64,000 nucleotides of DNA. Source: Panicum virgatum. Its lineage: Eukaryota > Streptophyta > Magnoliopsida > Poales > Poaceae. Positions 850 through 49,214 of this stretch are shown here, in pieces. Location: assembly GCF_016808335.1 (NCBI RefSeq), contig NC_053146.1:43156809-43220808 (forward strand), written 5' to 3'. The position numbers and the translations under genes were made by a program. The notes beneath the pieces were generated by a model. It was not told the DNA's origin, ran no database searches, and saw only the letters and a program-made list of their open reading frames with translations. Numbering within the stretch: position 1 is the stretch's first letter; the number at the start of each line of letters is the position of its first letter.

Positions 850-862
850 GTCTCCCACTTGC
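850..862 (-). other. Copia polypurine tract
   Basis: Directly beside the 3' LTR, the minus strand reads CAAGTGGGAGAC and then TGTTGGAA. This is the expected purine-rich primer site for plus-strand synthesis. Confidence 0.8.
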
Positions 863-869
863 ACTAGAG

Positions 870-3800: not shown

Positions 3801-3950
3801 AGTCAACTTCTCCTCTTTCAACGCTTCTACTCGTTGTCATTCCCTGCATCGAATTGCATATATGATCAACCGATCCGGTATCAAATACCCAAGAATTAAC
3901 ATAAGAGTCAGCGATAAATATTTCTTAATATGAACGACAAGCGTACCCGA
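870..3950 (-). pseudogene. Copia pol remnant: protease, integrase, RT, RNase H
   Basis: Reading from 3950 down: a protease core with WVFDTGS around 3890; a GAG-pre-integrase HHCC finger (HTYMWHCRLGH ... CEACLLDK) near 3480-3360; an integrase core with D (IHTDVCGP), D (RSDRGGEY) and E (VSERRN), about 3310-2970; an RT with KGFRQVQGVDYDETFSPV (about 2215) and a YIDD catalytic box near 1835; and an RNase H with LYCDNSGA (about 1090) ending at 870. Stops interrupt the frame at 2620-2622 (TAG), 2338-2340 (TAA) and 1999-2001 (TGA), and the RNase H lies in another frame. Protease and integrase catalytic residues look intact, but the polyprotein cannot be made whole. Confidence 0.92.
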
Positions 3951-5597: not shown

Positions 5598-7190
5598 TGT
5601 CATAATCACGACACGCAGGTCATTAAACAATTGCACACATGCATCACATACACATAGGGGCCATACCTATTACAAAACATACAAAACAGAGTTATGCGAT
5701 TCCGACGTTCGAACTTAAAACGGCGAAAACTCTATCTTCTGGGCCGAATTTCGCAAATCTAAATTTTGCGAAAATAGAAATGCTGTTCTAAACCAAATAT
5801 AACTTTTTTCTGTAGATACAAATCTATATAAAATTCACCTTAATCCGAGTTCGTATGCAAAAGTTATGACTGTTTTACTGTAAAACACACTTTTTCAACA
5901 AATCGGAATTCGCAGTAGATCCAATTTATTGCCCTATGCATCTCATGCATCTGGCTTATGCCCTAAGCTTCGTTTCAACCAATCACATTGATCTCCAACC
6001 GCAATGACCGGGTTTATGAGCATCACTTAACTCCGATGGCGGAAAACCGACCGGTAGGAGTATGTCGTTGCACAACCTTCGCAGCATGTTTACGAAACTA
6101 GGTCACAGATCGGTCACGAATCGAAGTCCACACGTACGGGAAGAAGCATCGCACTCCGGATTGCTAGATCCACGAGAACAATTAGGGCCGATGCACAAGG
6201 AGGAGGAACAGGGAGGGGGCGGTTCATGTAAACAGTACCCCCACCCTTGTATTTATAGCCCCTTAGGCGCCCCCTAGGTGGGCTCCCATGGGCCCCACCT
6301 TGGGCATCCCCTACTGGGCCAACTAAAGCCCATTAGTGCATCTAAGCCAAGTCTAATTTGGATCTCGTCCTCATTAGGTTTCTGGCCCTTACGTGTGTGA
6401 TCCTATGGGCTCACACGTGAATAGACATGGCCCAATACTCCTACTGGTCAATAGTTGATAGCGGTCTCTAGCAAGACGTGTCAACTCCTAAGCACGCGCG
6501 AATCATATCTGTCGAGCCGTCACAATCTTATACATATTATTCCCTTTACCTCGCGATATTTGGTCTAGCTTGAAGCCGACCACTCTTTTCTCGATCCTGT
6601 GATTCGGAATTCTTGGTTAACTCTTAACCCTATCATGACCATGCATTTCCTAATCCGAATCACTCGAGGGGCCCAGAGATATCTCTCTTTTGTAGAGGGG
6701 AAAATCTCATCTTGACCGACTATGTCTCACAGCATGCTTCTTGACAGACCCGAAAGCCATCTTTATAACTATCCTGTTACAGTGCAGCGTTTGATGGCTC
6801 CTAAGTAAGTCGGTTCACATCTTGAGTATATACGACGATCTCAGGTCTTAGGACACAGCGTACATATTATGTAATGAGAAGTCATCATCTCGTGTTGGGT
6901 CAGTTCTGTCTCATGTCTCACATGAACCCATATTATTAGTTTAACATCCCATGTCCATGATTTGTGAACCGTAGTCAATCAACTAATACATGTGCTAGTC
7001 TAGTATTCATGTGCGTCCTCACATGAACTCTAACTAGGAACATTTTAGAATATCCATACAAGTAAAGAGTTTCATAAATACTTCACATAAGCATCAATCA
7101 ATACAAGTTGTCATCCATGGATATTCAAGGAACACTTTATTAATCATAAATACAAGGAAATATGATTGTCTCTAGGGCATATTTCCAACA
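5598..7190 (-). repeat. Copia 5' LTR
   Basis: The outer end is certain (7190, shared with the left LTR). The inner end at 5598 is inferred. Plus-strand TGTCATAATC would make the LTR end in CA on the minus strand, and just beyond it (5584-5595) is a poor match to an initiator-Met primer site (CGGCCAGAGCCA). A length near 1.6 kb would fit Angela-like elements. Confidence 0.65.
6250..6257 (-). promoter_or_regulatory. TATA box of copia LTR
   Basis: The minus strand reads GGCTATAAATACAAGG, a canonical TATA box inside the 5' LTR at the expected U3/R boundary. Confidence 0.7.
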
Positions 7191-7399
7191 GCTAACGCGT
7201 AATAATATACATACATTTACTCAAATAGTGATGAACTCCTTAAAAATTGCATCAATTAGCTCATCATGAAAGATGATCCTTATCTGCAAAAATCGAATAA
7301 CATAATTAAGAACAAGAAAGAACACAACAAAATTACAGATCAATAATTAAGTACTCAAGTTTGGATCTTACAAAATGAGACCAAAGAACTGTTCTTGGT
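7191..7399. other. AT-rich DNA, nothing recognised
   Basis: This short stretch lies between the copia LTR and the first recognisable LINE codons. I see no gene or repeat. It may be pre-insertion DNA or decayed LINE 5' sequence. Confidence 0.4.
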
Positions 7400-7444
7400 T
7401 GATAGACTTGCTAATTTTGCTTCCAAAATCATTTCTCCATGTCA

Positions 7445-8163
7445 GCGGTTTTTGTTAATGGCAGATTCATTGTGATTGGTGCAGTGATGCTTCATGAATT
7501 TGTCCACAAGTAACAAACAAATAAAATGTGGGGTGTGGTGTTCAAGATCGACTTTGAAAAAAGCCTATGACAACATCTCTTGGGACTTTGTGGATGAAGT
7601 TATGAGGAAGAAAGGCTTTGAAGATGTCCTAAGAAATTGGATTACGAGCATAGTTAGGGGAGTAGAGTGTGTGTCAACATCAATGGAGAAAATCCCCTAT
7701 TTCAAGACGCACCGTGGGTTGAGGCAAGGGGATCCCCTATCCCCACTGTTATTTAACCAAGCAGTGGATGTCTTAGCTCGTATTATGACTAAAGCAAAAG
7801 AATAGGGGTTCATGAAGGGGGTAGTACCTCACCTAGTACCTGGGGGGATTACCCATTTGCAATATGCTGATAACATTTTTCTCATGGTGGATGGAGATTC
7901 GATCAAGAACATAAAGTTCCTATTATATTGCTTTGAGTGGATGTCAGGGATGAAAATCAACTATCAAAGTGAGATGGTGCTGTTTGGAATGGGTGAAGAT
8001 GAACAATAGATCATAGCGAACATGCTCAATTACAACATTAGCCAGATGCCCCTGAGATATTTAGGATTTCCCATTAGCAGCAGAAATGAAGGCATGGGAG
8101 CCTTCAAAAACATAGTAGCTAAAATAGGGAAGAAATTACATCCTTGGAAGGGTAAACACTTAT
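7445..8163 (+). pseudogene. LINE 1 reverse transcriptase, first part
   Basis: RT motifs appear in order: FVNGR (about 7455), a motif A region with KAYDNISWDF (about 7560), GLRQGDPLSPLLF (about 7720) and the catalytic box YADN (about 7865), where active L1 elements have YADD. Then come MKINYQSE and LRYLGFP. Stops lie after AKE (7803-7805) and DEQ (8007-8009), and there is a frame change near 7450. The catalytic second Asp is Asn, so the RT would be dead even with the frame open. Confidence 0.9.
8159..8163. repeat. Target-site duplication CTTAT, left copy
   Basis: It directly precedes TGTCGATACC of element A and is identical to 22925-22929. Confidence 0.92.
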
Positions 8164-9236
8164 TGTCGATACCCCAGGACTGGGGTACCCCCTCTTGCTG
8201 TGTCGAGGCAAGGGCCTTGTAGTTATCCTTGACTACGTCCAAACAGCCGGACCCCTGCGGTCCGGAGTCCTGTTCCCCCGACAACGGTCCCGGACCTGTC
8301 TCACAACTGAGAAAGGTCCAGGAACACCGCGTGTCCCGGAAGAGGCAGGCGCTCAGCACGAACAGCCGGGGCTCCGGACCTCCCGTGGAGTCCGGACCCC
8401 CGCGGAAGTCCCGGACCCCCTGTATAGTAACCGGACCCCTCACTAAGGGAAGAAATCGACACCCCTCCCCGGGGGGGGGGGGGTCCGGAGCAGACACATA
8501 TACAAGGTCGCTTGGTCTCCATACTAAGCCTCACCCACCACTGCATTCATTGTGGTAGGTGGACGTCCGCATTGATGCAGCAGAAGCCGAGGCGATTCTT
8601 TGACCAGGGGGCACTATTGATCGCGTATTACCAAGGTACATAGTGGAGCTGCTGGCGCCGCCCACGCCGCGCCTGTCAGTCTGCCATAACAGATGGATAC
8701 GACGGCTCGGCTTCACCCATTATGACGCCTACGTAATAGCCTCAACAGGTCACGCCGCAAGCTACGTTCCCCCAACGGGCACCTTGTTGACACGATAAGA
8801 GAAGACCTCCTTTCGTCAGAGAGTCAGCAGGGCATGGAAGCATATCGGAGGAAAGATTCGTAACCACTGTAGTCATTTGAGTACTCTGCGCAGTATGCTG
8901 CACAGTACGTTGGGCCCACTTGTCGGGGCCTCAATGCCCTATGTATCCGCACCCCTTGGTCTATAAAAGGGAGGCGCCCGCTAGAAGAAAGCCCCAAGGC
9001 TGGGTGAAAGCCAAGGCCGGCAGAGGATAGGTTCATACAAGAACAATACATCTCCCAGTGGACGTAGGGTATTACGCTCCGGCGGCCCGAACCACTCTAA
9101 ATCGTGTGTTCTTGTGAGCTTCCTTCCAAATCTAGATCTGCCCAATCGCCAAAGTACTCCCCAGAGTCCTCCCTCACTGGGAATAGGCGGGTGCGCTCCG
9201 CCACCCGGCTGTGGGTACCCTAGAAATCCCGCAACA
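8164..9236 (+). repeat. Element A 5' LTR
   Basis: 1073 bp, starting TGTCGATACCCC and ending CCGCAACA. It contains a run of 13 G near 8471 and a TATA box at 8961-8968. The first 26 bases hold an almost perfect palindrome (8168-8189). Confidence 0.93.
8961..8968 (+). promoter_or_regulatory. TATA box of element A 5' LTR
   Basis: GGTCTATAAAAGGG lies about 275 bp before the LTR end. The same motif is in the 3' LTR at about 11977-11984. Confidence 0.75.
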
Positions 9237-9256
9237 TTTGGCGCCGTCCGTGGGGA
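9237..9256 (+). other. Element A primer-binding region
   Basis: TTTGGCGCCGTCCGTGGGGA directly follows the 5' LTR, the position and type of a gypsy PBS. The cognate tRNA was not determined. Confidence 0.65.
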
Positions 9257-10700
9257 GTCGGGCGCTGGTTGGATCTTCGGCTCCTGGGTCCATGTTCATC
9301 CTCTGCAACGACAAACGAGAAGATGAAGGAAGGCAGGGCGTCACCCACGCCACATGCCGTGACACTGGGGCACCAACGCCCACGGCCCGATGGCGCACGG
9401 CAGCGGCGTCTGTTGTGCGTCGCCACAGCAACACCTCAGAGTCGGCATGGCAGCGCACAGCGAAAGCGCCGCTAGGCGCTGCTACCCCTACGTCGACTCA
9501 AGGTTTTCTCTCAAGCAATGGTCATGCTTCCTCTGCGGCGGTATGGCGTCGGCTCAAGGCTTTCTCTCAACATGGAGCCTGGAGCCGACGGCCATCCCGG
9601 AGGAAGTTGACCGTGTCGTCGTGTCATCTCCGGCACCGCCCCAGGCTCTTGGTGCTGCTGCAGACAGGACCCCGCCACTAGGCGTGGGGGCCCAGGCGCG
9701 AGCACCAAGGACAAGCCGGCGAACGACCGCCCTTCTCCACGCTCCGTGCTCGTCCATACGAGCACACATTTTCCCGCTGCGCCAGGGCGGAAAGCCAGCT
9801 CCTGCCGCAGCAGGGGGCGGGCGGCCGGCTCTCGGTGGCGGACGGCGGCGGCAGGGGGCCTCTTCCATTCAAGGCCAAAGAATTTGTCTCAAGCTGCCTA
9901 AGCATATGACAGCTCTTAGGCAAGGAGTGGCCCCCCGAGCTCCCGAGGTGTTGCTGGATGATGCGGTTCAGGCACATCCAGTACGCCTTCGCCTCCGATG
10001 ACTATGAAGAATTCGGGAGTGGCCATGCCACTCCCAACCGAAGAAGAACACGCTGTATAGCATGCAGCCGTAGGTTACTCCTAAGAAAAGATTAAGAGAG
10101 TTCCTCCTTTGTAATAACGTGGCGCCTACGTGTGTGTCCAGAGCGGTCAAGGTCTAACCTTGTAAACCCGACCTCTGGCCCTATCACACAAACAGGCAAA
10201 AAGCGGTCCGGAGCGGTAGAGGTCCGACCTCGTAATCCCGACCTCTGATGTATACCGTGATAACCACAATAATAAAGGAGATTTATTTTCTTAGTCTTGT
10301 CTCGACTCCACCCTGATCACATTCATTCGATCTGGTTGGCTATTTCTTGGTTAACCATCTCTTCCCCCTAAACAGAGTCTTTTCTTTTTTGCAGCGATCC
10401 AAGTTAAGTAGCCAGGCTTGGAGTCAGGTGAGGACGCCCCTTCTAGCTGGAAGGCAGTCCGGACCCCTAAGGGCCTGCTCTGGAGAAGTGGTACTCGTAT
10501 CCTGGCGTAGAGGAGCTCCGCGTAGCTTAGTCTGGTAATGTGCCCTAAGTTCACGTACTTCACTACCCTGTTACAAGTACTCTAGTATCCTAGACTGCTG
10601 TCTTTAGAGGTCCCGGACTCCCTTCTAGTATAAGGCTTGGATTCCTACACCTTACTGTGAGGTCCGGTGACGTTTTTCTTTGGTTCGTCAGCAATAATCC
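9257..10700 (+). other. Element A interior, no recognisable coding domain
   Basis: This is GC-rich DNA with several overlapping open frames (for example 9390-10001) of low-complexity composition and no retrotransposon motif. Open frames on both strands here look like a by-product of GC richness. It probably serves as packaging or template sequence, which is inference. Confidence 0.6.
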
Positions 10701-10902
10701 AAGTCCACTCCGGTGGCCCGCTCCGGCGGAGACCGCTCGCCACGGTCGCTCCAAGTCCACTCCGGTGGCCCGCTCCGGCGCAGATCGCTCGCCACGGTCG
10801 CTCCAAGTCCACTCCGGTGGCCCGCTCCGGCGGAGACCGCTCACCACGGTCGCTCCAAGTCCACTCCGGTGGCCCGCTCCGGCGGAGACCGCTCGCCACG
10901 GT
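10701..10902 (+). repeat. Four tandem 52-bp repeats in element A
   Basis: Units start at 10701, 10753, 10805 and 10857, each beginning AAGTCCACTCCGGTGGCCCG and ending near CCACGGTCGCTCC. Within each unit, TCCGGTGGCCCGCTCCGGCGGA contains short inverted CCGG motifs. Units differ at only a few positions, and the last is slightly short. Confidence 0.9.
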
Positions 10903-11160
10903 CGGCAAGAGCCAGGTCCGGGAAGTAGTGCTTGCTCCCTGAGCGATCCGAAGTCTGTGTAGCCGCTTAGCTTGGTTCCGTACCCTAAGCCTACACCTTC
11001 ATCGCCCTGTGGAGAGCACTCTAGTACCTGAACCTGGCAACGAGTGTACCGGCCTCAGGGGTCCGGGACACCCGCTCTCTCCATGAGCACACCAACGCAA
11101 TCAAGTTGCGTAGAAACACATCACGATAGTGGCCCCACCCGCGGGTTCGTACCTCACCCG

Positions 11161-11179
11161 AGGTGGGCCCGGGGGCCAC
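11161..11179 (+). other. Element A polypurine tract
   Basis: AGGTGGGCCCGGGGGCCAC abuts the 3' LTR. The same 19 bases flank the 3' LTR of element B. Confidence 0.8.
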
Positions 11180-12252
11180 TGTCGGTACCCCAGGACTGGG
11201 GTACCCCCTCTTGCTGTGTCGAGGCAAGGGCCTTGTAGTTATCCTTGAGTACGTCCAAACAGCCGGACCCCTGCGGTCCGGAGTCCTGTTCCCCCGACAA
11301 CGGTCCCGGACCTGTCTCACAGCTGTGAAAGGTCCAGGAACACCGCGTGTCCCGGAAGAGGCAGGCGCTCAGCATGAACAGCCGGGGCTCCGGACCTCCC
11401 GTGGAGTCCGGACCCCCACGGAAGTCCCGGACCCCCTGTATAGTAACCGGACCCCTCACTAAGGGAAGAAATCGACACCCCTCCCCGGGGGGGGGGGGGT
11501 CCGGAGCAGACACGTATACAAGGTCGCTTGGTCTCCATACTAAGCCTCACCCACCACTGCATTCATTGTGGTAGGTGGACGTCCGCATTGATGCAGCAGA
11601 AGCCGAGGCGATTCTTTGACCAGGGGGCACTATTGATCGCGTATTACCAAGGTACATAGTGGAGCTGCTGGCGCCGCCCACGCCGCGCCTGTCAGTCTAC
11701 CATAACAGATGGATACGACGGCTCGGCTTCACCCATTATGACGCCTACGTAATAGCCTCAACAGGTCACGCCGCAAGCTACGTTCCCCCAACGGGCACCT
11801 TGCTGACACGACAAGAGAAGACCTCCTTTCGTCAGAGAGTCAGCAGGGCATGGAAGCATATCGGAGGAAAGATTCGTAACCACTGTAGTCATTTGAGTAC
11901 TCTGCGCAGTATGCTGCACAGTACGTTGGGCCCACTTGTCGGGGCCTCAACACCCTATGTATCCGCACCCCTTGGTCTATAAAAGGGGGGCGCCCGCTAG
12001 AAGAAAGCCCCAAGGCTGGGTGAAAGCCAAGGCCGGCAGAGGATAGGTTCATACAAGAACAATACATCTCCCAGTGGACGTAGGGTATTACGCTCCGGCG
12101 GCCCGAACCACTCTAAATCGTGTGTTCTTGTGAGCTTCCTTCCAAAGATAGATCTGCCCAATCGCCAAAGTACTCCCCAGAGTCCTCCCTCACTGGGAAT
12201 AGGCGGGTGCGCTCCGCCACCCGGCTGTGGGTACCCTAGAAATCCCGCAACA
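11180..12252 (+). repeat. Element A 3' LTR
   Basis: 1073 bp, TGTCGGTACCCC...CCGCAACA, nearly identical to 8164-9236 (for example GGTACC here against GATACC in the left copy). Confidence 0.93.
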
Positions 12253-12269
12253 TTTGGAAGGCACAGCCG
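12253..12269. other. 17-bp junction between elements A and B
   Basis: TTTGGAAGGCACAGCCG. The first five bases equal the start of A's primer-binding region (9237-9241). GGAAGGCAC and CACAGCCG also occur a few tens of bases away inside the adjoining B LTR (about 12287-12315). It is neither a copy of CTTAT nor a TSD for either element. Confidence 0.85.
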
Positions 12270-13280
12270 TGTCGTGGTGCTACAAACCACAGCCGGGTGG
12301 CGGAAGGCACCCGCCCTAGCCCCAGAGGGAGTGTACTCGGGGGTTAGCTAGTCTTAGATCGATCTCACTCAAGAACACGATGAACACAGCAAGATTTAGA
12401 GTGGTTCGGGCCGCCGGAGCGTAATACCCTACGTCCACTGTGTGTTGTATTGCCTTCCCACGAGAGTGAGAGAGTTGCGAGAGCTTGTGTCTGTCTGGAT
12501 GTCCCTGTGCACAGCGAGCGCCTCCCTTTTATATCTCAAGGGGGCGCGTACACAGCTGTTGGGTCCCCGACAAGTGGGTCCAACTGTTGTAGTATAAAAT
12601 AACGTACTGTTCATACATTATGGCATCGCAGGCAAAGGTGATCTCTCTCTGGATTCCCTTGCATGCTCCCGGAGCCCTTCGTTCATCATGTCCTGGCGCT
12701 GTCTTGTCGGGACGGAGCCTGACGTAGCTAGTGGCATCGCCCACCACGTTGCTTAAGCAGGCGGTGTAGCTTGCGGCGTAGGCGGCATGATGGAAAAGTG
12801 CCGTGCTGTCGTATCCATTTAATGCTGCAGGCGGTCTCTGCGCAGCCGCGGCACAGGCGGCTGCACTGTGCTCCTTGGTAATACGCGGTGTACAGCGAGG
12901 CCTGACAAAGGCTGACTCGCGTGCAGCGGCGGAGAGCACGCCTTGTCCATCTGCATTAAATGCGGTAGGTGCGCGGGTCTTCGAGCGGAAGGCTCCCGCG
13001 CGAGCCCGTTCCTCTGGGCTACGTGGCAGCTCCGGACCCCTACGCGGCAAAGGGGGGTCCGAGGCCCCGGCGGTCAACATGGAGCTTCCCTTTTATAGAG
13101 ACACGTGGCGTCTCCGGACCCTTCCCCAGGCGGGGAACGGGTCCGGGGCCGTTGGCCTGGTGAAGGAAGGGCCTGACCCGTGGGCCTGGCTACTCCGTCC
13201 TTTCCACGCAGTTACGGATAACTACGCAGGTCCTGCCTTGCTGCAGTAAGAGTGGGTATCCCTGCTACAGGGTACCGACA
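12270..13280 (-). repeat. Element B 3' LTR
   Basis: 1011 bp, plus-strand TGTCGTGGTGC ... GGTACCGACA. It is 38 bp shorter than the right copy because of one deletion near 13050 between short GGTCCG repeats. TATA on the minus strand (GAGATATAAAAGGG) lies at about 12527-12534. Confidence 0.92.
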
Positions 13281-13300
13281 GTGGCCCCCGGGCCCACCTT
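13281..13300 (-). other. Element B polypurine tract
   Basis: The minus strand reads AAGGTGGGCCCGGGGGCCAC directly before the 3' LTR. It is the same tract as in element A. Confidence 0.8.
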
Positions 13301-13770
13301 GGGGGAGGTACGAACCCACAGGTGGGGCCACTTCTGCGATTTGGCTCTGTATAGCTTGAAGCTCCTTTCTGCAGGGGTCTTGACCGGCTTGACCACTCAT
13401 CGGGTTGGTTGCTGCCTCATCACATCGCAACGGCTTACTGACTACGGGCCCCACGCACAGTTGTTCACCTAGTCATGCGCGCGATGTTCGGCATTGTTGC
13501 GGCCGGAGTAAACGGATCATTTACCACCGGCGCAGCTCCCGAAAAGCTCGGCCTCGCCTGCGATTAATGCGCGCACGTCAGCTCAGCTTCCCCCTTGCTT
13601 CACGCGCGTGGGAGACGGTTCGGATCCCGCCTTTTCACACCTCTGTTGGTTACCCGCTCTCCCTGACAGGTGGGCCTGGCCCCCCTTGCCATGGACCGGG
13701 CGGTTAACCCTAGGTGCGGGCGTCGCTTAGGTTCCAGCGACGGTTCCGGGGCGTGCCGGTTGAGTCAGGC

Positions 13771-13778
13771 TTTATATT
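13771..13778 (+). promoter_or_regulatory. Possible TATA box for the antisense ORF
   Basis: GGCTTTATATTGGGG lies about 130 bp before the ATG at 13909 and is followed by a pyrimidine-rich stretch (13800-13930) typical of a plant 5' leader. Confidence 0.45.
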
Positions 13779-15407
13779 GGGGTGAACCACATTCTGTGGT
13801 TTCTTTCCCACTTTCGCCTTCTTCCTTCCATCCTTTGCGCCCCTTTGCCTTCGAGCTTTCCTTGCCCCTTGCTCCCCTGCGCCGGCTTCCTCTCACCTCC
13901 ACTAAGCGTTGGCATCCCTTGTTCATCCCCGCCGCTTCCAGACCGAGGGAGAGTTGAACACAGTGCGCCACCTACTCGGGAGGAGTGCACAGGAGACCGG
14001 CTGGGGGGTTCGAGCAGGCTCGGTTCCTCTTGGCAACCTCCGCGCCGGGGAGTTTGTGCTATTCACCTCGCACATCTCCGCCGGCGTGGGACTGCCGATT
14101 TCTTCGTTCCTGTTGCTGCTGCTGGAAGACTTCGGCCTCCAACTTCAGCATCTGATGCCCCACTCCCTCCTCCTGACGTCCATCTTTGTGCACTTATGCG
14201 AGATGTTCGTGGGAGTACGCCCCTGCGTCATCCTCTTCCGCTACTTCTTCATTCTGGTGAGGTCCGGAAGGAGCAAGGACGAAGTGGGGGGATACTACTT
14301 CCAGATAAGGAGCGACCTGCCGACTCCTTACATTCCCGGTCTTGCTGGCGGAAGGTGGGAGGAGTGGCGCAGGGATTGGGTGATCGCCACCACCGAAGCC
14401 AACGAGCGCCTTGCCCTGCCGACTGGGGGCCCCACCTCCGACAAAGCATCCTGGAGGGCCAAGCCGTCGCTGCAGCCGGAGTTCGACTCCGTGCTGGACA
14501 AGATCAGGTCGCTGGCGGAGAGCGGCCTCACCTCGTGGCACGTGCTCATAGACTTCGTGAAGCGCCGGATCGCCCCCTTGAAGCAGCGGCCGCGACCGGC
14601 GTGGAGCTTCACCGGCCTCAACGATTGTAGCAGGACCCACCGCGGGGAGGGGAGCGACCTGACCCAGGAGGCCTTGGAGGTCCTGGTGCGCAACGTGACG
14701 GGAGACGCCTTCAACCCGGAGAACCTGATCCTCCCGCAGAGCACAGTCCCCCTCTGCAAGGATCCGGCGAGGATGGCGGTGCTGGCTACCCTGCCAACCC
14801 TGGACGACGGAGGACTGGCCCCACGGCAGACCGGAGGCGACCCGAACCGTGGGCTCCGGATCCCTGGCGCGTCCGGGGATCAAGCTACGCTGAGCGCTGC
14901 GGGATCCGGTGCCACCATGAAGGGGAAGCAGGCCGCGGCTAGCAGCGCGGCCGCAGCTGGCTCCAGCAGGCCACAGAGCAGCTCCGGTGCATCGTCGGGC
15001 GACGCCGGCCGGCGGAGGCTACTCTGGGGCGACGGGACCCTGGTCTCGGAGCCCGCCGCGAAGTGCCAGAGGTCTTCTGAGGGTGCAGGCCAGGGTAGCT
15101 CCCGGACCGCCGGCCCCCACGGGTCCTCTGGGGCGACTGGACCACCACCATCGCCGCCGAGGAATTCCTCCCGCCGGCAGCAAGAGCCGCAGCAGCCGCA
15201 AGAGCAGCGGCAGCAGGCACGCGGGCGGCAACAGCAGCAACAGGTGCGACCCCGGGTTGCGCCCATGCCGCAGCCATAGGGATAGCAGCAGTGGGAGCAA
15301 GCCCGGGTTGCGCCTGCATCGCAGCTGCAGGGGCAGCAGCAGCAACAGCAGCAGCCGCAAGAGAAGAGGCCCGGGCTCCGGGGACGCTGGGTACCCGGTA
15401 CTTCTGG

Positions 15408-15484
15408 GTTAGTGTCATCCTGCTCTCTTCCCTTGTGCCGGTGCTCTGTTTTTTTTTCTGAAGGCTTTTCTGCTTTGCTACCAG
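15408..15484 (+). other. Predicted intron in the antisense ORF
   Basis: The donor is TCTGG/GTTAGTG and the acceptor TTTGCTACCAG/GGCTCC, with a long T run (15449-15458). Removing the 77 bp joins two Ala/Ser/Pro-rich reading frames in phase. Confidence 0.6.
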
Positions 15485-15683
15485 GGCTCCTCGCCCCAGC
15501 GGTTCTTCTACCATCGCTGGCACATCGGCAGGTGCCCAGGCGGCGGCGGCCTCGGCGTCGACAGCGACGGCGACAGCAGGTGCGGGACCCTCAGGTACGG
15601 CGACCTGTGCTAGCCCCGTGGTGCGTGACGTGATGCTGACAGGCGTGTCTTTTTCAGACTCAGCAGCGCACAACTCTGCAGCG

Positions 15684-15976
15684 GCAGGGGCGCCGGTGCT
15701 GGGTGCAGCCGCACCCGACGCGGCGACAACGGAGGCGTCGGCGCTGAACGCAGCCGCTCCCGATACGGCGGCGGCGGAATCGCCGGTGCTGGGTGCTGCT
15801 CCCCCCGATGCTGCGGCAGCGGAGGCGCCAGTGCTGGGCGCAGCCGCTCCCGACGCGGCAGCCGAGGCGCCGGTGCTGGGCGCTACCGTACCCGACGAAT
15901 CAGCGGCGGAGGCGCCGGTACCGGGCACGGCCGCTCCCGACGCGGCGGCGGTGGAGGCGCCGGAGCTGGGCACGGC
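15684..15976. repeat. Tandem 39-bp repeats coding on both strands
   Basis: About eight imperfect units encode GAAAPDAAAAEAPVL-like repeats on the plus strand and ASAAAASGAAAPSTG-like repeats on the minus strand. Several units are shortened by multiples of three. Confidence 0.8.
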
Positions 15977-18900
15977 ATACCTCTGTAACCCTGAAGGGCC
16001 CCTCCCAGCTGGGGGAAAGTTTGTGGAGCTCTGCTCGGCTCAGGATCCGTCTGAGGACGAGGTCGCCAGCCCAGAGCTCCCTACTGTGCACGAACCGTTG
16101 ATGATAGCGCCGAAGCGCCTGGTTGTAGCGTGCATTTCGGATTGCTGCTCGCCACCTTCGCTCGTCAACGAAGTCCACGTCGTCGCACCGCAGCTGCTCC
16201 TGCATGGATTCGTCAAAGGCCTGGACCCGTGGTGAGCCCAAGTGAATTTCTGGGGGAAGGCATGCTTCAGCCCCGTAGACCAGGAAGAACGGAGTCTCCC
16301 TGGTGGCTCGGCTGGGTGTGGTCCGGTTGCCCCATAGTACGCACGGAAGCTCGTCAACCCACTTGGCACCATGCTTCTTCAAGCAGTTGTAGGTGCGGGT
16401 CTTGAGTCCCTTGAGGATCTCTGCATTCGCTCTCTCAACCTGTCCATTACTGCGGGGATGTGCTACGGATGCAAAGCATAGCTGGATGCTGATGTCCTCA
16501 CAGTACTCTTGGAAGAGTCTGCTTTTGAATTGGGTCCCGTTGTCCGCGATAATACGGTTTGGGATGCCAAATCTGCACACAATGGACCTGAGGAATGCGA
16601 CTGCTGATTTCTTAGTGATATTCACCACAAGGGTAACTTCCGGCCACTTGGTGAACTTGTCGATGGCGACATAGAGGAACCGGTACCCGCCGACAGCTCG
16701 GGGGAAAGGCCCCAGGATATCCACACCCCACACAGCGAATGGCCATGAGGGCGGAATCATCTGCAGAGCTTGAGCCGGGGTGTGTATTTGCTTTGCATGG
16801 AATTGGCATGCTTTGCAGGACCTTACCAGCTCAGCCGCATCCTGGAGTGCTGTTGGCCAGTAGAAGCCATGCCGGAAGGCCTTGCCAACAAGCGTGCGAG
16901 AGGAGGAATGACTTCCGCACTCGCCTCCATGGATCTCTGCGAGCAATTCGCGGCCCTCTCCCTGGGAAATGCACCGCATGAGGACACCGTTGGTGCCACG
17001 GCGGTAGAGATCCCCTTCTACCACCGCGTAGCGTTTAGCCAATCGGACTATGCGCTCAGCGGACACATCGTCATCAGGGAGAATGTTATCTTTCAGGTAG
17101 TCCCGGATCTCGGCGATCCATGCATCGGGAGCTCCCAGAGTAGGTGGCGGTGGCTCTGTGAGGTCACCAGGTTCCTCAACAGAGCACACAGCCCAGGTCG
17201 GGCACCATATGTGGAATGCTGCTGGGACCACTAGCTTCGAGGTGCTAGCTTGATCCCCTTCACCCAGTTCGGCGGGCTGGGCGGTAGGTCTCAGCAGCCG
17301 CCTTTCGAAGACACCCTCGGGCATGGGTGCCCAGGTAGATGCTCTTGCGGAGAGATCATCTGCTGCTGAGTTGAGTTCGCGGGGAACGTGTTGCAGTTCC
17401 AAGGCGTCGAAGTCCTTCTCGAGCTTCCTCACGTGTATGAGGTATGCCGCGAGCTGGGGATTGTTGCAGTTGCAATCCCCTCAGACCTGCTTGATGATTA
17501 GCTGTGAGTCCCCCTTCACCAGGAGCTGCTGGACCCCTAGTGAGAGGGCTTGCGTCAGGCCAAAGATCAGAGCTTCGTACCTCACCATGTTGTTGGTGGC
17601 CTTGAACTCAAGATGCACCATGTACTTCAGCTGATCTCCGTTTGGGTCGATGAGGACCACACCAGCCCCGGCCCACTTCTCGCGGACGGATCTGTCAAAG
17701 AAGAGTGTCCAGTGAGGCTCGGTGAAGACTGGTGTCTTGATTTCCGGCTCCGGGGGTCCAGCGTTTACGACCGGACCCCCAGGATTGTTTGGGGAAGGAG
17801 TCCATTCCGCTATGAAATCAGCCAGGATCTGGCTCTTGACCGCATGGCGTGGCTGGAAATCCAGTTGGAACTCTGCCAGCTCTGCTGCCCACTTGGCGAT
17901 ATTGCCTGTGGCGTTGGAGTTGTGCAGGATCGCTCTTAACGGGTAAGAGGTCACTACAACAACTCGGTGTGCTTGAAAGTAGTGGCGCAGTTTCCTGGAC
18001 GCAATAAGTATTGCATAGATAAGCTTATGCGTCTCAAGATACTTGGCCTTTGCCTCGTGGAGGACTTCGCTGATGTAGTAGACTGGCTTTTGGACGGTGC
18101 GGACCCTAGTTACCGGGTCCGGCTCGCCCTTGTCCACCACATCAGGCCCTTGGGCCCCCAGCGGTTCTGGGTTCCCACCGGGACGAGGCTCCCCCGGACC
18201 CGCTTGTGCGGGGTCCGGACCTTCAAGCTGGGGTGAGGCTGACGGGCCCCCGTGTCCGGGGTCCGGCTCACCATCCTTGGCCGGGAGGACCTTAGTGTTC
18301 CCCTGGCGAGTTTGCTCCATCATTTCGGCGACCAGCACCATGCTGACCGCCTCCGCGGACGCAGCAAGATACAGAAACAACGGCTCACCGGGTTCCGGAG
18401 CCACCAATACTGGCAGCGAGGTGAGGTGCTGCTTCAGCGCCTGGAAGGCCTGTTCAGCCTCTTCGGTCCAAGAAAATGGACCGGACCTCCTCAATAGCTT
18501 GAAGAAGGGAAGGGCCCTCTCGGCCAGCCTCGATATGAAGCGGCTAAGAGCAGCGAGAGATCCAGTAAGCTTCTGGACGTCCTTGATGCGGCCAGGAGGC
18601 CTCATTGCTTCGATCGCCTTGATCTTGGCTGGGTTTGCCTCGATGCCTCGATGTGAGACCAGGAAACCCAGCAGCTTCCCCGCTGAGACGCCGAAGATGC
18701 ACTTCTCTGGGTTCAGCTTCGTGCGCGTGGCGCGAAGACGGTCGAAGACGAGGGACAGGTCCTCCACGAGTGTTGACCCTACCTTAGTCTTGACCACAAT
18801 GTCATCGACATAAACCTCAACAATATCTCTAATTAGATTACAGAAGGTTTTGTTCATAGCTCGTACAAACGTGGGTAAGGCATTCCTTAGACCATACGGC

Positions 18901-19394
18901 ATGACAATGTAGCAATAAAGCCCATCTACTGTTACAAAGGCAGTATGTTTCCTATCCTCTCTAGACATCTGAATCTGATGGAAACCAGAGTATGCATCTA
19001 GAAAAGACAAAAGGTCGCACCCGGAGGTGGAGTCCACGATCTGATCAATACGCGGAAGAGGATAGGGGTCTCTTGGACATGCCTTGTTGAGGTTGGTGTA
19101 GTCGATGCACATTCGAAGCTTCCCGTTGGCCTTTGGGACGATGACCGGGTTGGCCAACCACTCGGGGTGGTAGACCTCCTCGATGAAGCCGGCGTGTAGG
19201 AGCTTGCGGACTTCTTCGCGGATGAAGTTCTGCCGCTCCACGGACTGCTTCCGAGGCTTTTGGCGCACCGGCGTGGCGTCGGGGTAGATCCTCAAATTGT
19301 GCTCGATCACTTCCCTGGGGATCCCGGGCATCTGTGATGGTTCCCAGGCAAACACGTCGACATTTGCCCGGAGGAAAGCGATGAGCGCGTCTTC
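15900..19394 (-). pseudogene. Element B pol: RT, RNase H, integrase
   Basis: The RT begins near 19355 (FAWEPSQMPGIPREVIEH). It has the LANPVIVPKANGKLRMCIDY block, LSFLDAYSGFHQI and an intact catalytic box YVDD (about 18815). A Pro/Gly-rich insert near 18300-18140 lies inside the RNase H region, and a second RNase H-like segment (FFDRSVREKWAGAG, about 17700) follows. TGA at 17481-17483 breaks the frame. After 17432 come ELNSAADDLSARAS, an HHCC finger (IHGGECGSH ... CKACQ, about 16930-16800) and the integrase core with D (WGVDILGP), D (IADNGTQF) and E (NGQVERANAE). The last codons overlap the antisense ORF at 15900-16235. Confidence 0.92.
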
Positions 19395-21818
19395 CTATTT
19401 CTCCTCCAGGTTCCCCGCGATGCAGGTGGTCCTGGTGGAGTCTGCTCCAATCTGCACCGTCTTCACGGGAACATGGTCCGGATCGGACGGTTGGACCTTG
19501 GGAGCCTTTGCAGGCGCCTTGGGTTGCGAGGTGGACGGATCCTCCTCAGAACGTGCAGCCTCTGCCTCCAGAGCATGCAGTCTCTCAACTGCAGCGACGG
19601 CAGCGGTGCGGTCGCCCTGCACGGTGAGGACTCCGGCAGGGGAAGGCATCTTCAAGACCAAATACCCATAATGGGCAATGGCCATGAAGCGGTAGAGTGC
19701 CGGTTGGCCAATGATGGTGTTGAACGGAAGGTTCACCTCCGCAACATTGAACATGACGCTCTCTGTGCAGAAGTTCTCCTCGGTCTCGAACGTGACCGGC
19801 AATGTGATGCTCCCCAGAGAGAACACCGGGTGTGGGCCCACTCCGGAGAATGGGAGAGAGGGAGTCAGCTTGGACTCCGGGATCTGCAGCTGCTTGAACG
19901 CTGCATAACTGATGACGTTGAGGCCAGCCCAAACATCAATCAGCACGTGGTAGAGCCTCACATTGGATATGACAGGAGCAGTGACTAAAGGTAGCACACC
20001 AGCTCCGGCCATATTCTCCGGGCAGTCGGATGGCCCGAAAGAGATGGTGGTGTTCATCCACCTCTGGTGTGGCGCCGCCTTCGGGACCCCCGGCTTCACC
20101 GAAAGGACCTCCCGGCGAAGGGTCTTCACGTCCCGCCGGGAGACAAGCTCCCAGCTTCCGCCATACATTACGTACAGCTTCTTGCGGCGGTCGCTGTTGT
20201 CGGAATCAGAGTCGTCGTCGTGATAGACGCCCTTCAGCTCTCGAGCGGGGGATTGGTACCCCAGCTCCTTCTCCCCGGCTGCGGCCCCGCCGTCGGAGGC
20301 CTTCTCCTTGCCGGCCCGCTGGCGAGGAGGGGGTGAACCGTCCTTAGAGGACTGCTCACGCCGCCCACTGACTCGCTTCGCGAGCTTTTGGATCTCACGG
20401 CAGTCAGCGGCGCTGTGGCGTGCGGTGGGATGCACTGGGCATGAACCTCCGCTTCCACCTTGCGGGCGAGGGCGTTTACCATGTGCGTTCTGGCCCCCAG
20501 CCGCTGCCGCCGCTGCCGGCGCCGCCGCTGGCGCTGCTGCTGCAACGACTGGTCCACTAGAATGCGGCTCCCCGCGACCCCGGTTCTTGTTCTTCTTCTT
20601 CTTGCCACCGCCCTGAGCGGTAGCACTGGATCCACCAGCCTTGGTGTCTCCGTCTTGGGGGGCTGAGTGCCATGCACGGCCCTCAGCGGCCCTGGCACAC
20701 TTGTCTGCCAGGGAGAAAAGCGTAGTGACGCTTTCCACCTCGTGCGTCGCCAGCTTCTCGAGCATCTTCTCATCACGTACCCCCTGGCGGAAAGCAGTGA
20801 TAATAGATGCATCTGAGATACGAGGGATGGTACCCCGTACCTTGGTGAAGCGCGAGATGAAGGCCCGAAGCGTTTCCCCGGGTTTTTGCCTCACGGCGTG
20901 AAGGTGTGCCTCCACACCATGCTGCTGGTATGCACTGGCGAAGTTCGCTATGAACCTCGCACAGAGCTCTTCCCAGGACTGGATCGTCCCAGGTGTGAGG
21001 TTCATGAGCCAGGTCCGGGCTGGCCCAGACAAGGCTACATGAAAGTAGCTTGCCATGACTGCGCCGTTACCACCAGCCGCTGTGATGGCGGTAACGTACA
21101 CCTGCAGGAATTCCGACGGGTTAGTGGTACCGTCGTACTTTTCCGGCAGGTGGGGGCGGAACTTGGGTGGCCATGCCACGGCGCGGAGGTGCTCCGCAAG
21201 TGCAGCACAGCCCACCCCAGCCACCGGTGCGCCTGACTATATACGGGCGTTCACCGGAGGCCTAAGTGCCAGCGCGTCCAAATCAGCATTGAGGTTGCGA
21301 CCCTCAATGTTGAGATGGCGCTCGCGCGCCCTCTCGACGGAGACACGGGCATCCTCTCCTGCGCGCCGGCGGTTGAGCTCCGCCCGCAAGTCTTCTGTTC
21401 GTGCACCCCTCACGGTAGGGGAGCGCACGGACGCCGACGCCCCGCCCTGACGCTGGCGGTAAGGTACCACCGCGTTGCCGGGCGGAGGTCGTTGCCCAGT
21501 CCTTGCAGAACTGGAGGGGGCCTGAGCCAGGTGGAGGAGACGGTCAACGTCGTCCCGCCACTGCTTCAGGGCGTCTGGCGAGGCTGCCTCAGCCGGAGGG
21601 TTGCGAAGCAACTCCCTAGCCGCTGCCAGCGCTCCGCCGCTCACAGCCTGTGAGGGGGCCCTTGATGGGCGCCCTGACTCTTGCCGGCGAGCGGCGCGCG
21701 CCGCCGCCAACGGTGGCTGCTCCACAGGCACAGTTGCCCCTGGAGCAGGAACGCGAGAGGCATGTGGCGTGGAGGACGCCACACCCTCCGTCATCTCCAC
21801 GTCGTCCACGCGAACCAT
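19395..21818 (-). pseudogene. Element B gag and protease
   Basis: ATG at 21818 lies 58 bp after the 5' LTR. The N-terminal 193 codons are Ala/Arg-rich. A TAG at 21237-21239 follows, then the retrotransposon gag domain (KFRPHLPEKYDGTTNPSEF to about RQGVRDEKMLEKLA, 21150-20740), a basic Gly/Lys-rich stretch and a Cys/His-poor segment (CPVHPTARHSAADC, about 20430). Around 19945-19915 is the protease core LIDVWAGLNVIS. The Asp is kept, but the small residues that normally follow it are Val-Trp, so activity is doubtful. TAG at 19395-19397 separates this part from pol in the same frame. Confidence 0.9.
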
Positions 21819-21861
21819 GGGGACGAAGAAGAGATGAACTGCGACCAGCTAAAGGCCCCTA

Positions 21862-21875
21862 CCTGGCATGCCAAA
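21862..21875 (-). other. Element B primer-binding region
   Basis: Directly after the 5' LTR the minus strand reads TTTGGCATGCCAGG. Position and TTTGGC start fit a gypsy PBS; the tRNA was not determined. Confidence 0.55.
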
Positions 21876-22924
21876 TGTCGTGGTGCTGCAAACCACAGCC
21901 GGGTGGCGGAAGGCACCCGTCCTAGCCCCAGAGAGAGTGTACTCGGGGGTTAGCTAGTCTTAGATCAATCTCACTCAAGAACACGATGAACACAGCAAGA
22001 TTTAGAGTGGTTCGGGCTGCCGGAGCGTAATACCCTACGTCCACTGTGTGTTGTATTGCCTTCCCACGAGAGTGAGAGAGTTGCGAGAGCTTGTGTCTGT
22101 CTGGATGTCCCTGTGCACAGCGAGCGCCTCCCTTTTATATCTCAAGGGGGCGCGTACACAGCTGTTGGGTCCCCGACAAGTGGGTCCAATGTTGTAGTAT
22201 AAAATAACGTACTGTTCATACATTATGGCGTCGCAGGCAAAGGTGATCTCTCTCTGGATTCCCTTGCCTGCTCCCGGAGCCCTTCGTCCATCATGTCCTG
22301 GCGCTGTCTTGTCGGGACGGAGCCTGACGTAGCTAGTGGCATCGCCCGCCACGTTGCTTAAGCAGGCGGTGTAGCTTGCGGCGTAGGCGGCATGATGGAA
22401 AAGTGCCGTGCTGTCGTATCCATTTAATGCTGCAGGTGGGCTCTGCGCTGCCGCGGCACAGGCGGCTGCACTGTGCTCCATGGTAATACGCGGTGTACAG
22501 CGAGGCCTGACAAAGGCTGACTCGCGTGCAGCGGCGGAGAGCACGCCTTGTCCATCTGCATTAAATGCGGTAGGTGCGCGGGTCTTCGAGCGGAAGGCTC
22601 CCGCGCGAGCCCGTTCCTCCGGGCTACGTGGCAGCTCCGGACCCCTACGCGGCAAAGGGAGGTCCGGGCGGACGCAGGGGGCCTCGGACCCTTACGGGGG
22701 GTCCGAGGCCCCGGCGGTCAACATGGAGCTTCCCTTTTATAGAGACACGTGGCGTCTCCGGACCCTTCCCCAGGCGGGGAACGGGTCCGGGGCCGTTGGC
22801 CTGGTGAAGGAAGGGCCTGACCCGTGGGCCTGGCTACTCCGTCCTTTCCACGCAGTTACGGATAACTACGCAGGTCCTGCCTTGCTACAGTAAGAGTGGG
22901 TATCCCTGCTACAGGGTACCGACA
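21876..22924 (-). repeat. Element B 5' LTR
   Basis: 1049 bp, minus-strand start TGTCGGTACCCTG and end GCACCACGACA. It carries a TATA box near 22132-22139 (minus). A block just downstream of TATA (GGACGTAGGGTATTACGCTC and CCCGAACCACTCTAAATC) is shared with element A's LTRs. Confidence 0.92.
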
Positions 22925-22929
22925 CTTAT
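22925..22929. repeat. Target-site duplication CTTAT, right copy
   Basis: It directly follows GGTACCGACA, the outer end of element B, and is identical to 8159-8163. Only one copy is needed to restore the LINE reading. Confidence 0.92.
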
Positions 22930-24190
22930 CCTTGGGGGGGCTTTAATTCTGAAAAATTCATCTTTAACCAGCATGTCGACGTTCATAATGAGAAAGTTTA
23001 TGCTTCATGATGGGGTGCATAAACAAATGAACAGTATAAGAAGTCAGTTTTTCTTGAGGGGGAATTGTGACAAGTTTAAATACCACATGATTAAATGGGA
23101 TAATGTATGTGTGCCTACAGACTGGGGGGGCTTGGGATTATTAATACCAGAATCTTTAATGAATATCTTTTGATGAAATAGGTTTGGAGAATTTATAACA
23201 GTACTGAGAAAGATTTGTGTTGCCAACTTCTCAAAACAAAATATTTGAAGCAAAATATTTGAAGCATAAACCTCTGTTGTGCCACGAAGGAGCCAAAGGT
23301 TCGCAATTTTGGAGGGGTCTGAACAAAATTAAGCATGGCTTTAGCCGGGGCTGTCTTTCATGTGAATAATGGGAGGTTAACCAGATTTTTGGATGATGTT
23401 TGGAAGGGAGACATCCCTCTCAAACTAGCCTACCCCATGCTCTATGATCTGAGTGAGAATAAGATAGGGGTGGTAAGTGATTTCTTTGTGAATGGATGCT
23501 GGCAACTCGCTTTTAGAAGAGCCTTGACCCCGCAAGATGTACCTATATAGGAAGATTTGATGGATCAACTTGAGGGAGTGTGTTTGAATTCTGAACAGGA
23601 TGTTGTTAAGTGGGCTTTGCAGAAATCGGGATGCTTCTCAACAGGATCTATGTATAAGTGGTTCTCTCATAGGGGTGTGGTGAATAAAAGACTGAAACAT
23701 ATTTGAGGTAGCATATTACTCATAACAGACTGCCAACTGGGGTGGAATTAAAAAGGAAGTGTTGTCTGTAGCATTTGTAAAAAAACTTGAGACAATAGAC
23801 CATATTTTCTTCTCCTATATTGTGGCTAAGTTTCTTTGGGCTTGCTTCAACGAAGCTTTGGGCTGGGACCGGATCCCGACGGGGTTGCAAGATTTCTTGG
23901 ATGCTTGGATTCCCTTGGGGTGCAAGGATTATAGTGCTAAACTTTTTTTTGCTAACCATGGTGATCTGGACTCTTTGGACCTCACGTAATAAATGGGTGA
24001 TTGAGGGCATGTTGCCACGTTACCCTGCTGACTTGCTGTTCAAAACGAATGCCTTTCTGCAGAAATGGAAGGTGCTACTACGAGAGGGTGACCAAACCAA
24101 GATCAAAGACTGGGCAAGACAAGTGAAGAGATGGACAGAGATCTTCCTGGAGGAAATAAGGCGGCGACCACCTAAAGACATCTTTTGTTG
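22925..24190 (+). pseudogene. LINE 1 ORF2 C-terminal part (post-RT and zf-RVT region)
   Basis: It continues the RT after the inserted element. A post-RT region with KFKYHMIKWDNVCVPTDWGG (about 23075-23135) is followed by a decayed zinc-binding RVT region: HIFFSYIVAKFLWACF at about 23800 matches the usual HLFF-C-A--W pattern of plant L1 C-termini. There are many stops and frame changes. It ends before the 3' tail at 24270-24326. Confidence 0.82.
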
Positions 24191-24326
24191 ATTAGTGCTC
24201 TTTTGTATTAGCTCCTGCCTTATCGTTCCTGCAGTTTTGTTCTCTGTGCGAACTGGCAACCTCAATGAACCTCTGTACGTTGTTATTGCTTTCTATAAAA
24301 GCTGGGTTAACCCCTTTCTAAAAAAA

Positions 24327-24769
24327 TTAATCTAAGCAAAACACACACCTAGTTTGAATGATGGTTATTGAATAAAAAGGATCAGGATCGGCCAAACAAC
24401 GGACACATTCTTAATGATCTCTAATACGATACAATGTCCATGACTCAAAATAAGATGGTGCAATACTCTGACAGCTTGTGGATGTCCACTTGTTTTGATG
24501 ATTTAGTTGACTTAGATCTACTCTTGACATGAGCTTGGTGATATTTGAAATATTTTGTTCTTAGTTCTTCACATATTCATAGAATGTAAAAGGTAGAGTC
24601 CATATATGACGTGGGTGACGATTTTAGTGCGGGCTACTCTTGGCTTTTGAGATGGACTCGAACTTGGTATGGTATGGGCTTCCGACTTGGTTTGGACGTC
24701 CTTGTTGACCTTCTCCTCCTCCATGCCTCCCTTCAACCACCTTCTGATTCTCTTCATTGTTCCTAAATA
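24327..24769. other. Intergenic DNA, nothing recognised
   Basis: Moderately AT-rich, with no conserved ORF or repeat that I can name. Confidence 0.4.
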
Positions 24770-24771
24770 TA

Positions 24772-25010
24772 CTAACATTCGTTCACAAATACTTGTCAAC
24801 TTTGAATTTTACTATTACTACTTTGACAGCTAATTATTTAAAAAGTATTTAATTGACTAGAATACTTAGAGTATCATTGTATTTTATGTCAATAATACTT
24901 TATGTATGACACATATTTGAAATAGCATAACAATGGTTTTATGAGAAAATTGAAGGTCAAACTTTGAATAGTAAAGTCAAAATTGTCAATTATTTGTGAA
25001 CGAAGGTTAG
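24772..25010. mobile_element. MITE with TA target duplication (Tc1/mariner-like, Stowaway type)
   Basis: 239 bp flanked by TA (24770-24771 and 25011-25012). The terminal inverted repeats start CTAACATTCGTTCACAAATA and CTAACCTTCGTTCACAAATA and extend about 45 bp with mismatches. AT-rich interior, no ORF. Confidence 0.78.
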
Positions 25011-42504: not shown

Positions 42505-42505
42505 C

Positions 42506-45920: not shown

Positions 45921-45924
45921 GGCA

Positions 45925-49192: not shown

Positions 49193-49214
49193 CAAGAGCT
49201 GATGAGATCCATCT

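Follow-up and report, generated by a model that had tools for sequence, protein, structure and literature searches.

The window, a 64,000-nucleotide stretch of Panicum virgatum DNA, contains two LTR retrotransposons, element A on the plus strand and element B on the minus strand, which adjoin through their U5 ends across 17 bp and are flanked as a pair, on the left by sequence with a LINE reverse transcriptase match. The features, with the basis of each assignment, are as follows.

7192..8158, plus strand: left flank, with a LINE reverse transcriptase (RVT_1) in its later part (Pfam, E 3.4e-16)
8159..8163, plus strand: left copy of the target-site duplication (TSD), CTTAT (sequence comparison of outer edges)
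8164-12252, plus strand: element A as a whole, 4.1 kb, in which no coding domain was found
8164..9236, plus strand: A 5' LTR, with the outer U3 end TGTCGATACC (LTR alignment)
9237..9256, plus strand: A spacer TT and 18-nt primer-binding site (PBS) TGGCGCCGTCCGTGGGGA (read from the sequence and compared among leaders)
9257..11161, plus strand: A internal region (ORF list and Pfam)
11162..11179, plus strand: A polypurine-tract region GGTGGGCCCGGGGGCCAC, identical in B (sequence comparison)
11180..12252, plus strand: A 3' LTR, with the inner U5 end ...CGCAACA (LTR alignment)
12253..12269, no strand assigned: U5-U5 join TTTGGAAGGCACAGCCG, made up of the TT spacer, TGG of the PBS and then filler like the U5 edge of B (BLAST, alignment and filler test)
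12270-22924, minus strand: element B as a whole, 10.7 kb, gag-RT-RNaseH-integrase
12270..13280, minus strand: B 3' LTR, with the inner U5 end (LTR alignment)
13281..13298, minus strand: B polypurine-tract region (sequence comparison)
13906..15279, plus strand: ORF opposite to the strand of B, PF04195 (Transposase_28, putative gypsy type transposon; Pfam)
15900..17480, minus strand: B ORF carrying integrase domains and the latter half of an RVT_3 match (Pfam)
17481..19394, minus strand: B ORF with RVT_1 and RNase H domains (Pfam)
19395..21236, minus strand: B ORF with Retrotrans_gag (Pfam)
21856..21875, minus strand: B spacer TT and PBS TGGCATGCCAGGTAGGGG (read from the sequence and compared among leaders)
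21876..22924, minus strand: B 5' LTR, with the outer U3 end TGTCGGTACC (LTR alignment)
22925..22929, plus strand: right copy of the TSD, CTTAT (sequence comparison of outer edges)
22930..24900, plus strand: right flank used for the empty-site reading, the frame persisting a few residues past the joined flanks (translation)

A preliminary description of this DNA had proposed that the LINE reads through once the 14.76 kb between the flanks is taken out. When the flanks were joined in silico, the frame did run across the junction as ...KGKHLS/LGG, a motif that we take to be typical of plant LINEs, but it shifted soon after, and the right flank piece gave no Pfam match at E<=1. The same description had assigned two complete LTRs to each element, with the U3 termini outermost and the U5 ends inward, and alignment of both LTR pairs bore this out: the outer ends are the U3 termini of A and B, and the U5 edges of the two 3' LTRs face the join. 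Element A has LTRs, a PBS and a polypurine tract and lacks gag-pol (a Pfam match at E<=0.01 was obtained for 0 of the 3 internal ORFs tested), as is characteristic of a non-autonomous LTR retrotransposon. Element B has TG..CA LTR ends, a PBS, a polypurine tract and the domain order gag, RT-RNase H, integrase that defines the Ty3/gypsy type; the TSD expected around such an element was absent from B itself and flanked only the A-B pair. The two 5' LTRs are identical at 604 of 1003 aligned bases, making A and B members of two families whose LTRs are about 60% alike. Since the U3 edge, the tract preceding U3 and a 63-bp block are common to both elements, A is probably mobilised by the enzymes of a B-type element.

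The sole TSD at this locus is the 5-bp CTTAT external to the pair, 8159-8163 being identical to 22925-22929, as previously proposed. Comparison of each outer 5-mer with the 5 bases past the corresponding inner end gave 2/5 matches for A and 0/5 for B, and thus the search for a second TSD belonging to either element alone found none in the window. Nested insertion was rejected here: no inner element with a TSD of its own lies within an outer element that it interrupts. The LTR pair of A carries 15 differences (11 transitions and 4 transversions) in 1073 aligned bases and that of B likewise 15 (11 transitions and 4 transversions) in 1010, along with two indels of 39 bp and 1 bp; the two ages are equal, as a single event predicts. 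Across the three composites compared, namely the window, L011 (A 0/1043; B 0/273, the B LTR being present only in part) and L025 (A 8/1028; B 7/1054), the ages of the A and B LTRs were equal within each composite.

The first bases of the join, TTTGG, are the 5 bases directly 3' of the A 5' LTR; the BLAST repeat (8164-9241 versus 11180-12257) extends 5 bases past the LTR, confirming that the join opens with the primer-binding region of A. The remainder had been likened to templated filler. GGAAGGCAC also occurs at 12302 and CACAGCCG at 12288, both in the U5 edge of B, and these two tracts account for 14 of the 17 join bases. That much coverage arose in 11 of 20000 shuffled versions of the join, in 64 of 20000 17-mers drawn at random from the window, in 5 of the 923 17-mers of 12341-13280, and in 375 of 20000 17-mers from the B-LTR pool, which contains the template's second copy. 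The resemblance of the filler to the B edge is therefore more than chance, though not overwhelming, and the templating proposal stands to that extent.

Further A-B joins were sought in the 1.13-Gb genome from which the window comes. All 20 fetched matches, a set that leaves out one partial match (C2:63995169), showed an A-type U5 head-to-head with a B-type or B-like U5, and about two dozen such pairs are present in all, nearly always one of each type. Exact-pattern scans for U5-U5 joins returned 18 A-B, 1 B-B and 0 A-A (reversed controls all 0), and a strict exact-pattern scan for U3-U3 joins returned 0, as did its reversed control. At best odds of one half, the probability of at least 18 of 19 joins being mixed is 3.8e-5. 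The absence of A-A and the scarcity of B-B joins could reflect palindrome loss or mis-assembly. With about two dozen A-B pairs in the same genome, an arrangement that at first resembled a one-off accident seems to arise by a recurrent route.

To the TSD comparison we brought 21 loci including the window, and both outer edges were readable in 11; the other ten (L012, L015, L016, L017, L020, L021, L022, L024, L026 and L027) lay outside the test. The outer 5-bp TSD was perfect in 10 of the 11 testable loci and matched at 4 of 5 bases in the remaining one, while the best match to a TSD of either element's own was 3/5. In 8 of these 11 loci a solo LTR stands on the B side or on both sides. A distant outer B edge was sought and not found for L013, L014, L015, L018, L019 and L023; the inner B-side LTR is solo in all of these except L015, and so itself provides the outer edge. 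An outer edge was likewise sought and not found for L020 and L022, and, going outward at L021 and L027, the next LTR on the B side has polypurine-tract sequence rather than host DNA in front of it. Five more A-B loci (C5, C6, C16, C17:39655291 and C18:75028097), viewed in 300-bp pieces, showed the outer edge of an LTR on one or both sides.

The join itself was compared across 25 loci, a set that leaves out L026, and took 21 distinct forms, at or close to both U5 ends throughout. An assembly error is unlikely because the joins are this diverse and outer TSDs occur in 11/11 testable loci. The A-side T-run was retained in 17 of the 25 joins and the B-side A-run in 18 as scored (19 counting L018), so the U5 bases that integrase normally trims are still present at most joins. 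The commonest joins, TTTTAAA and TTTAAA (6/25), are plain end-to-end junctions with no copied filler, while some others extend into primer-binding or tRNA-like sequence. The run-on at L022 proceeds as ATCGAACCCAC, a continuation absent from all 11 A leaders read. The B run-on at L018 is more like B's own leader than a tRNA copy, an observation that we counted against the explanation favoured below.

Taken with the equal LTR ages, the single outer TSD and the recurrence, the earlier reading of two cDNAs and one insertion is upheld: it is highly probable that A and B entered together, their U3 ends integrated and their raw U5 ends end-joined. One virus-like particle would package the RNAs of both elements, which probably shared it, and each would be reverse-copied to DNA. 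Integrase would then trim the U3 end of each cDNA to TG and insert both at positions 5 bp apart, leaving a single TSD outside the pair. The U5 ends would stay unprocessed and be ligated by end joining, through either NHEJ or polymerase theta, before or after integration. The joined ends would mostly retain the bases between LTR and PBS, with PBS or tRNA-like run-on, loss of end bases or, as in the window, short copied filler at some joins. More tentatively, at somewhat under even chances, the U5-U5 heterodimer may be a recurring partner-specific product: a particle with one A and one B RNA would yield two cDNAs where same-RNA particles yield one, integrase would act on the near-identical U3 ends, since A and B are unlike at U5, and the raw U5 ends would be joined by the plant.

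The order of the two steps distinguishes a pair of alternatives. In the order given by the preliminary description, free cDNAs are ligated U5 to U5 and the dimer is then integrated as ordinary linear DNA; the untrimmed U5 at most joins favours this, resembling HIV-1 2-LTR circle junctions with unprocessed U5 followed by PBS in the sections of PMC5618025 on such junctions, but random joining of free ends predicts U3-U3 joins as well, of which the strict pattern found none, and we regard this order as possible, at rather less than even chances. If instead one intasome held the U3 ends of two cDNAs and host repair then joined the two free U5 ends, the joining of U5 rather than U3 ends is accounted for, and the relevant part of PMC8742673 documents integration of two donors in vitro with a TSD of 5 bp. 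That same part reports an HIV-1 preference in vitro for U5/U5 pairs, and the sequence reads alike under either order; we place integration first just short of an even chance. Had reverse transcriptase passed from the U5 end of A to that of B, the join would have arisen during cDNA synthesis. The window filler can be read as a copy of B's U5 edge, and template switching is the model that PMC1950507 gives for other complexes, but the commonest joins, being plain, speak against it, and we judge it improbable.

A and B could in principle have come together through two separate insertions in the same place, or through a deletion or inversion that followed, nested and rearranged LTR elements being common in grasses according to PMC1950507. 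The preliminary description had called this less economical, and the evidence goes further: one outer TSD in 11/11 testable loci (one with a mismatch), with no TSD of A or B alone, together with 25 loci whose joins fall at or close to both U5 ends, leads us to reject it as very unlikely. Multiplication of the A-B composite as one unit is also very unlikely. In its favour, L011 and L022 are close on both sides (A 0.006, B 0.006), as are L015 and L016 (0.007 and 0.009), the Mantel r over 20 loci is 0.177 (reached in 32/2000 permutations), and L026 is a local copy of the L012 junction. It is nevertheless already contradicted by the diversity of the joins, which differ even between L011 and L022; moreover, L025 and L015 are 0.007 apart in their A LTRs but 0.295 apart in their B-side LTRs, and TSDs and flanks differ among loci.

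Several known systems resemble the joint insertion of two cDNAs in part. The template-switching complexes of Sabot & Schulman 2007 (PMC1950507) also hold two element bodies in one 5-bp TSD from one integration event; they have three LTRs with a shared inner one, one orientation, close parents and similar outer LTRs, whereas A-B composites have four LTRs when complete, opposite orientation, families about 60% alike and a U5-U5 join. A complex of that kind was rejected here: the third, shared inner LTR is missing, two different inner LTRs stand face to face, and the outer LTRs are not near-identical. Retroviral 2-LTR circle junctions (PMC5618025) are likewise end-joined cDNA with unprocessed U5 and at times then PBS, but they join U5 to U3 within one molecule, whereas A-B joins two molecules U5 to U5 and is integrated. 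Concerted two-donor integration (PMC8742673) inserts the ends of two DNAs together with a 5-bp TSD; there the enzyme is HIV-1 integrase acting in vitro, whereas in A-B the U3/U3 ends were used in a genome and the other ends joined. That HIV-1 integrase favours U5/U5, the opposite of the U3/U3 needed, was counted against our best explanation. Wheat autonomous and non-autonomous partners (PMC9744471, PMC11302176) similarly set a small element beside an enzyme-coding one; head-to-head joint insertions were not encountered in the excerpts of those papers, 'head-to-head' occurring 0 times in that of PMC11302176. In the relevant part of PMC12312487 the head-to-head pair is two VANDAL21 elements, handled under class II alternative transposition, and that of PMC11624286 raises head-to-head or tail-to-tail EVD insertions only as speculation. 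A search of open-access PMC found no title or abstract dealing with LTR retrotransposons inserted head-to-head through a U5-U5 join; among published complexes with one TSD, the closest are those of Sabot & Schulman 2007, and the head-to-head heterodimer class is without counterpart among the titles and abstracts searched.

Large inverted insertions of this class would tend to be annotated as two nested or truncated elements, and where only a solo LTR is left on each side (L009, L010 and L028) the composite is an inverted LTR pair about 2.1-2.2 kb long that would be taken for a terminal-inverted-repeat transposon. The sharing of particles by the RNAs of autonomous and parasitic LTR retrotransposons in plants, and the number of cDNAs per particle, are hard to observe. 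If the two-cDNA reading is true, every composite would document in the genome a single co-packaging event, with one date from its A LTRs and another from its B LTRs, and the raw cDNA ends, including the LTR-PBS spacer, PBS or tRNA-like run-on and repair filler, would be preserved in its join. On the partner-specific reading, each join would also identify the elements that shared the particle and the repair route by which the insertion was closed.

In the window composite, two LTR retrotransposons lie with their U5 ends facing each other and 17 bp between them:

8164-12252, plus strand, element A, LTRs of 1073 bp
12270-22924, minus strand, element B, LTRs of 1049 and 1011 bp

The 5-bp target-site duplication (TSD) CTTAT was found to the left of A and to the right of B and was absent at both inner ends, confirming the preliminary description of two opposite elements within one TSD. 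The comparison of LTR ages that it proposed gave equal values: the A pair differs at 15 of 1073 aligned bases (11 transitions, 4 transversions; K 0.0141) and the B pair at 15 of 1010 (11 transitions, 4 transversions; K 0.0150). The claim that a LINE host reads through once the composite is removed held in part. The left flank encodes a LINE reverse transcriptase (Pfam RVT_1, E 3.4e-16), and when the flanks were fused at one CTTAT the frame continued across the join as KGKHLS/LGG, but it soon shifts. The right flank piece gave no Pfam hit at E<=1, and the case from the LINE is therefore not as strong as that from the TSD. Two other repeat pairs in the window resemble LTR pairs, 1-850 with 6342-7191 (92.6%; span 1-7191) and 41668-42502 with 49859-50693 (97.6%), the latter (41668-50693) enclosed by an inverted pair at 41005-41333 and 51478-51802 (86%).

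Pfam analysis of the ORFs of B identified gag, RT-RNase H and integrase in the order of gypsy elements; the coding region is split in three by in-frame stops, one of them within the RVT_3 match, and the opposite strand carries an ORF of 457 codons matching PF04195 (13906-15279). In A, three ORFs reach 150 aa, and none of them matched a Pfam family at E<=0.01. Alignment of the A and B 5' LTRs showed identity at just 604 of 1003 bases, but both elements have the same tract before U3, the same U3 edge (TGTCGRTACC) and a common block of 63 bp (94%). Their primer-binding sites (PBS) differ, that of A presumably fitting a lysine tRNA and that of B-type elements, we assume, an arginine tRNA. Judged from sequence, A would be a passenger of a B-type element. 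Internal tandem repeats lie in A at 10646-10956 (period 52) and in B at 15678-16015 (period about 45).

The preliminary description had also proposed a search for other A-B joins, and such joins are present. When the genome (1,129,937,113 bases, 627 contigs) was queried with 217 bp around the window join, at least 22 further sites matched across the join, plus one partial, among the 40 of 2882 candidates that were scored. Twenty of the 22 were fetched for inspection, and all 20 have an A-type U5 head-to-head with a B-type or B-like U5. Counting join types by exact patterns only, we found 18 A-B U5-U5 joins (the window, 12 of the loci fetched and another five, which include the two unfetched matches of the 217-bp search), one B-B U5-U5 join, and no A-A U5-U5 or U3-U3 join across this one genome, from which all recurrence counts come; reversed controls gave 0 throughout. 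Exact patterns miss variants: the A-B scan lacks 8 of the 20 loci that were fetched. Under a null of random pairing, in which mixed pairs make up no more than half at any A:B ratio, 18 or more mixed joins of 19 have P 3.8e-5; the scarcity of A-A and B-B joins could also stem from palindromes being lost or mis-assembled. The one B-B join found (contig C14:25315154-25315211) is truncated at one end and runs on into a B-type PBS at the other. At C7:22334680-22354019, which holds loci L012 and L026, A and B pieces are duplicated and inverted locally, and its two head-to-head junctions are copies of each other, separated by about 9 kb.

Both outer U3 edges were readable in 11 of 21 loci (the window and the 20 fetched). 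A perfect 5-bp repeat lies outside the pair in 10 of these 11, and in L010 it matches at 4 of 5 bases; for a TSD of either element alone, agreement between the inner neighbours and the outer 5-mer never exceeded 3 of 5 bases. Two LTRs are kept on both sides in three loci (window, L011, L025), five (L013, L014, L018, L019, L023) have a solo LTR on the B side, and both sides are solo LTRs in three (L009, L010, L028). The LTR ages of A and B agree in all three two-sided composites, with differences of 8/1028 (A) and 7/1054 (B) in L025 and of 0/1043 (A) and 0/273 (B, LTR in part only) in L011, which is therefore young. In L014 (873-6111) the A LTRs show no difference over 1041 bases and B is a solo LTR within the same TSD; either LTR-LTR loss was very quick or B gave only LTR-length DNA. 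Tandem arrays, in which LTRs alternate with internal regions, make up the B side in L016 (5012-9834, unit about 2.3 kb), L021 (1324-4999, unit about 2.6 kb) and L027 (L037 313 to L027 4998); the arrayed elements are B-type or B-like, and adjacent LTR copies differ at 10/934, 4/1103 and 3/1052 bases, respectively. Multiplication of the A-B composite as one unit is spoken against by partner exchange, A LTRs 0.007 apart adjoining B-side LTRs 0.295 apart. A distances correlate weakly with B distances across 20 loci (r 0.177; 32 of 2000 permutations as high), and this may reflect families active in the same period.

Join sequences are of 21 kinds among 25 loci (excluding L026, the local copy of the L012 junction), the commonest being plain TTTTAAA (4) and TTTAAA (2); the T-run of A is present at 17 joins and the A-run of B at 18 as scored, or 19 counting L018. 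In the A elements read, the LTR end ACA is followed by TT or TTT and then TGGCGCC, and in the B-type and B-like elements read by TT and then TGGC. Because the leaders read this way before TGG, TTTTAAA and TTTAAA have the look of two U5 ends that met untrimmed, each retaining its spacer plus one base more; solo-LTR loci (e.g., L010, L028) have lost their leaders, and for them the reading is by analogy. An extra base would be predicted where the last base of the tRNA remained on the minus strand, behaviour reported for HIV-1 (PMC5618025). The L013 join is TTTTGGCGCCAAAA, in which the palindrome GGCGCC may be shared by the run-ons of both sides. In L022 the A run-on continues beyond the PBS as ATCGAACCCAC, seen in 0 of 11 A leaders read (ten diverge directly after GGGGA, L019 a few bases later), and, being complementary to a T-arm-like stretch, it looks copied from a tRNA. 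The B-side run-on of L018 (4987-5021) passes the PBS and resembles B's own leader, not a tRNA, and tRNA copying is no explanation there. The filler of the window join can be read as two copying steps from B's U5 edge; stepwise filler copied from a nearby edge is typical of polymerase-theta joining.

The U3 ends were trimmed and lie inserted at a spacing of 5 bp, and the U5 ends were mostly left untrimmed and joined; integrase therefore seems to have worked on the U3 ends only. According to PMC8742673, integrase in vitro can pair the ends of two donor DNAs, leaving a 5-bp TSD, and HIV-1 integrase preferred U5/U5 pairs there, whereas in the A-B composites it was the U3 ends that inserted. To judge from the shared U3 edge and the differing U5 edges of A and B, A's U5 edge may be a poor substrate for B's integrase. 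The lack of U3-U3 joins argues mildly for integration before U5 joining.

Head-to-head U5-U5 insertions were not found in the open-access literature searched. The nearest published case is that of same-orientation complexes with a common LTR within one TSD (PMC1950507), from which A-B pairs differ in two defining features, the shared third inner LTR and the near-alike outer LTRs. We file A-B pairs as a form of complex LTR retrotransposon insertion, set apart by its head-to-head U5-U5 layout.
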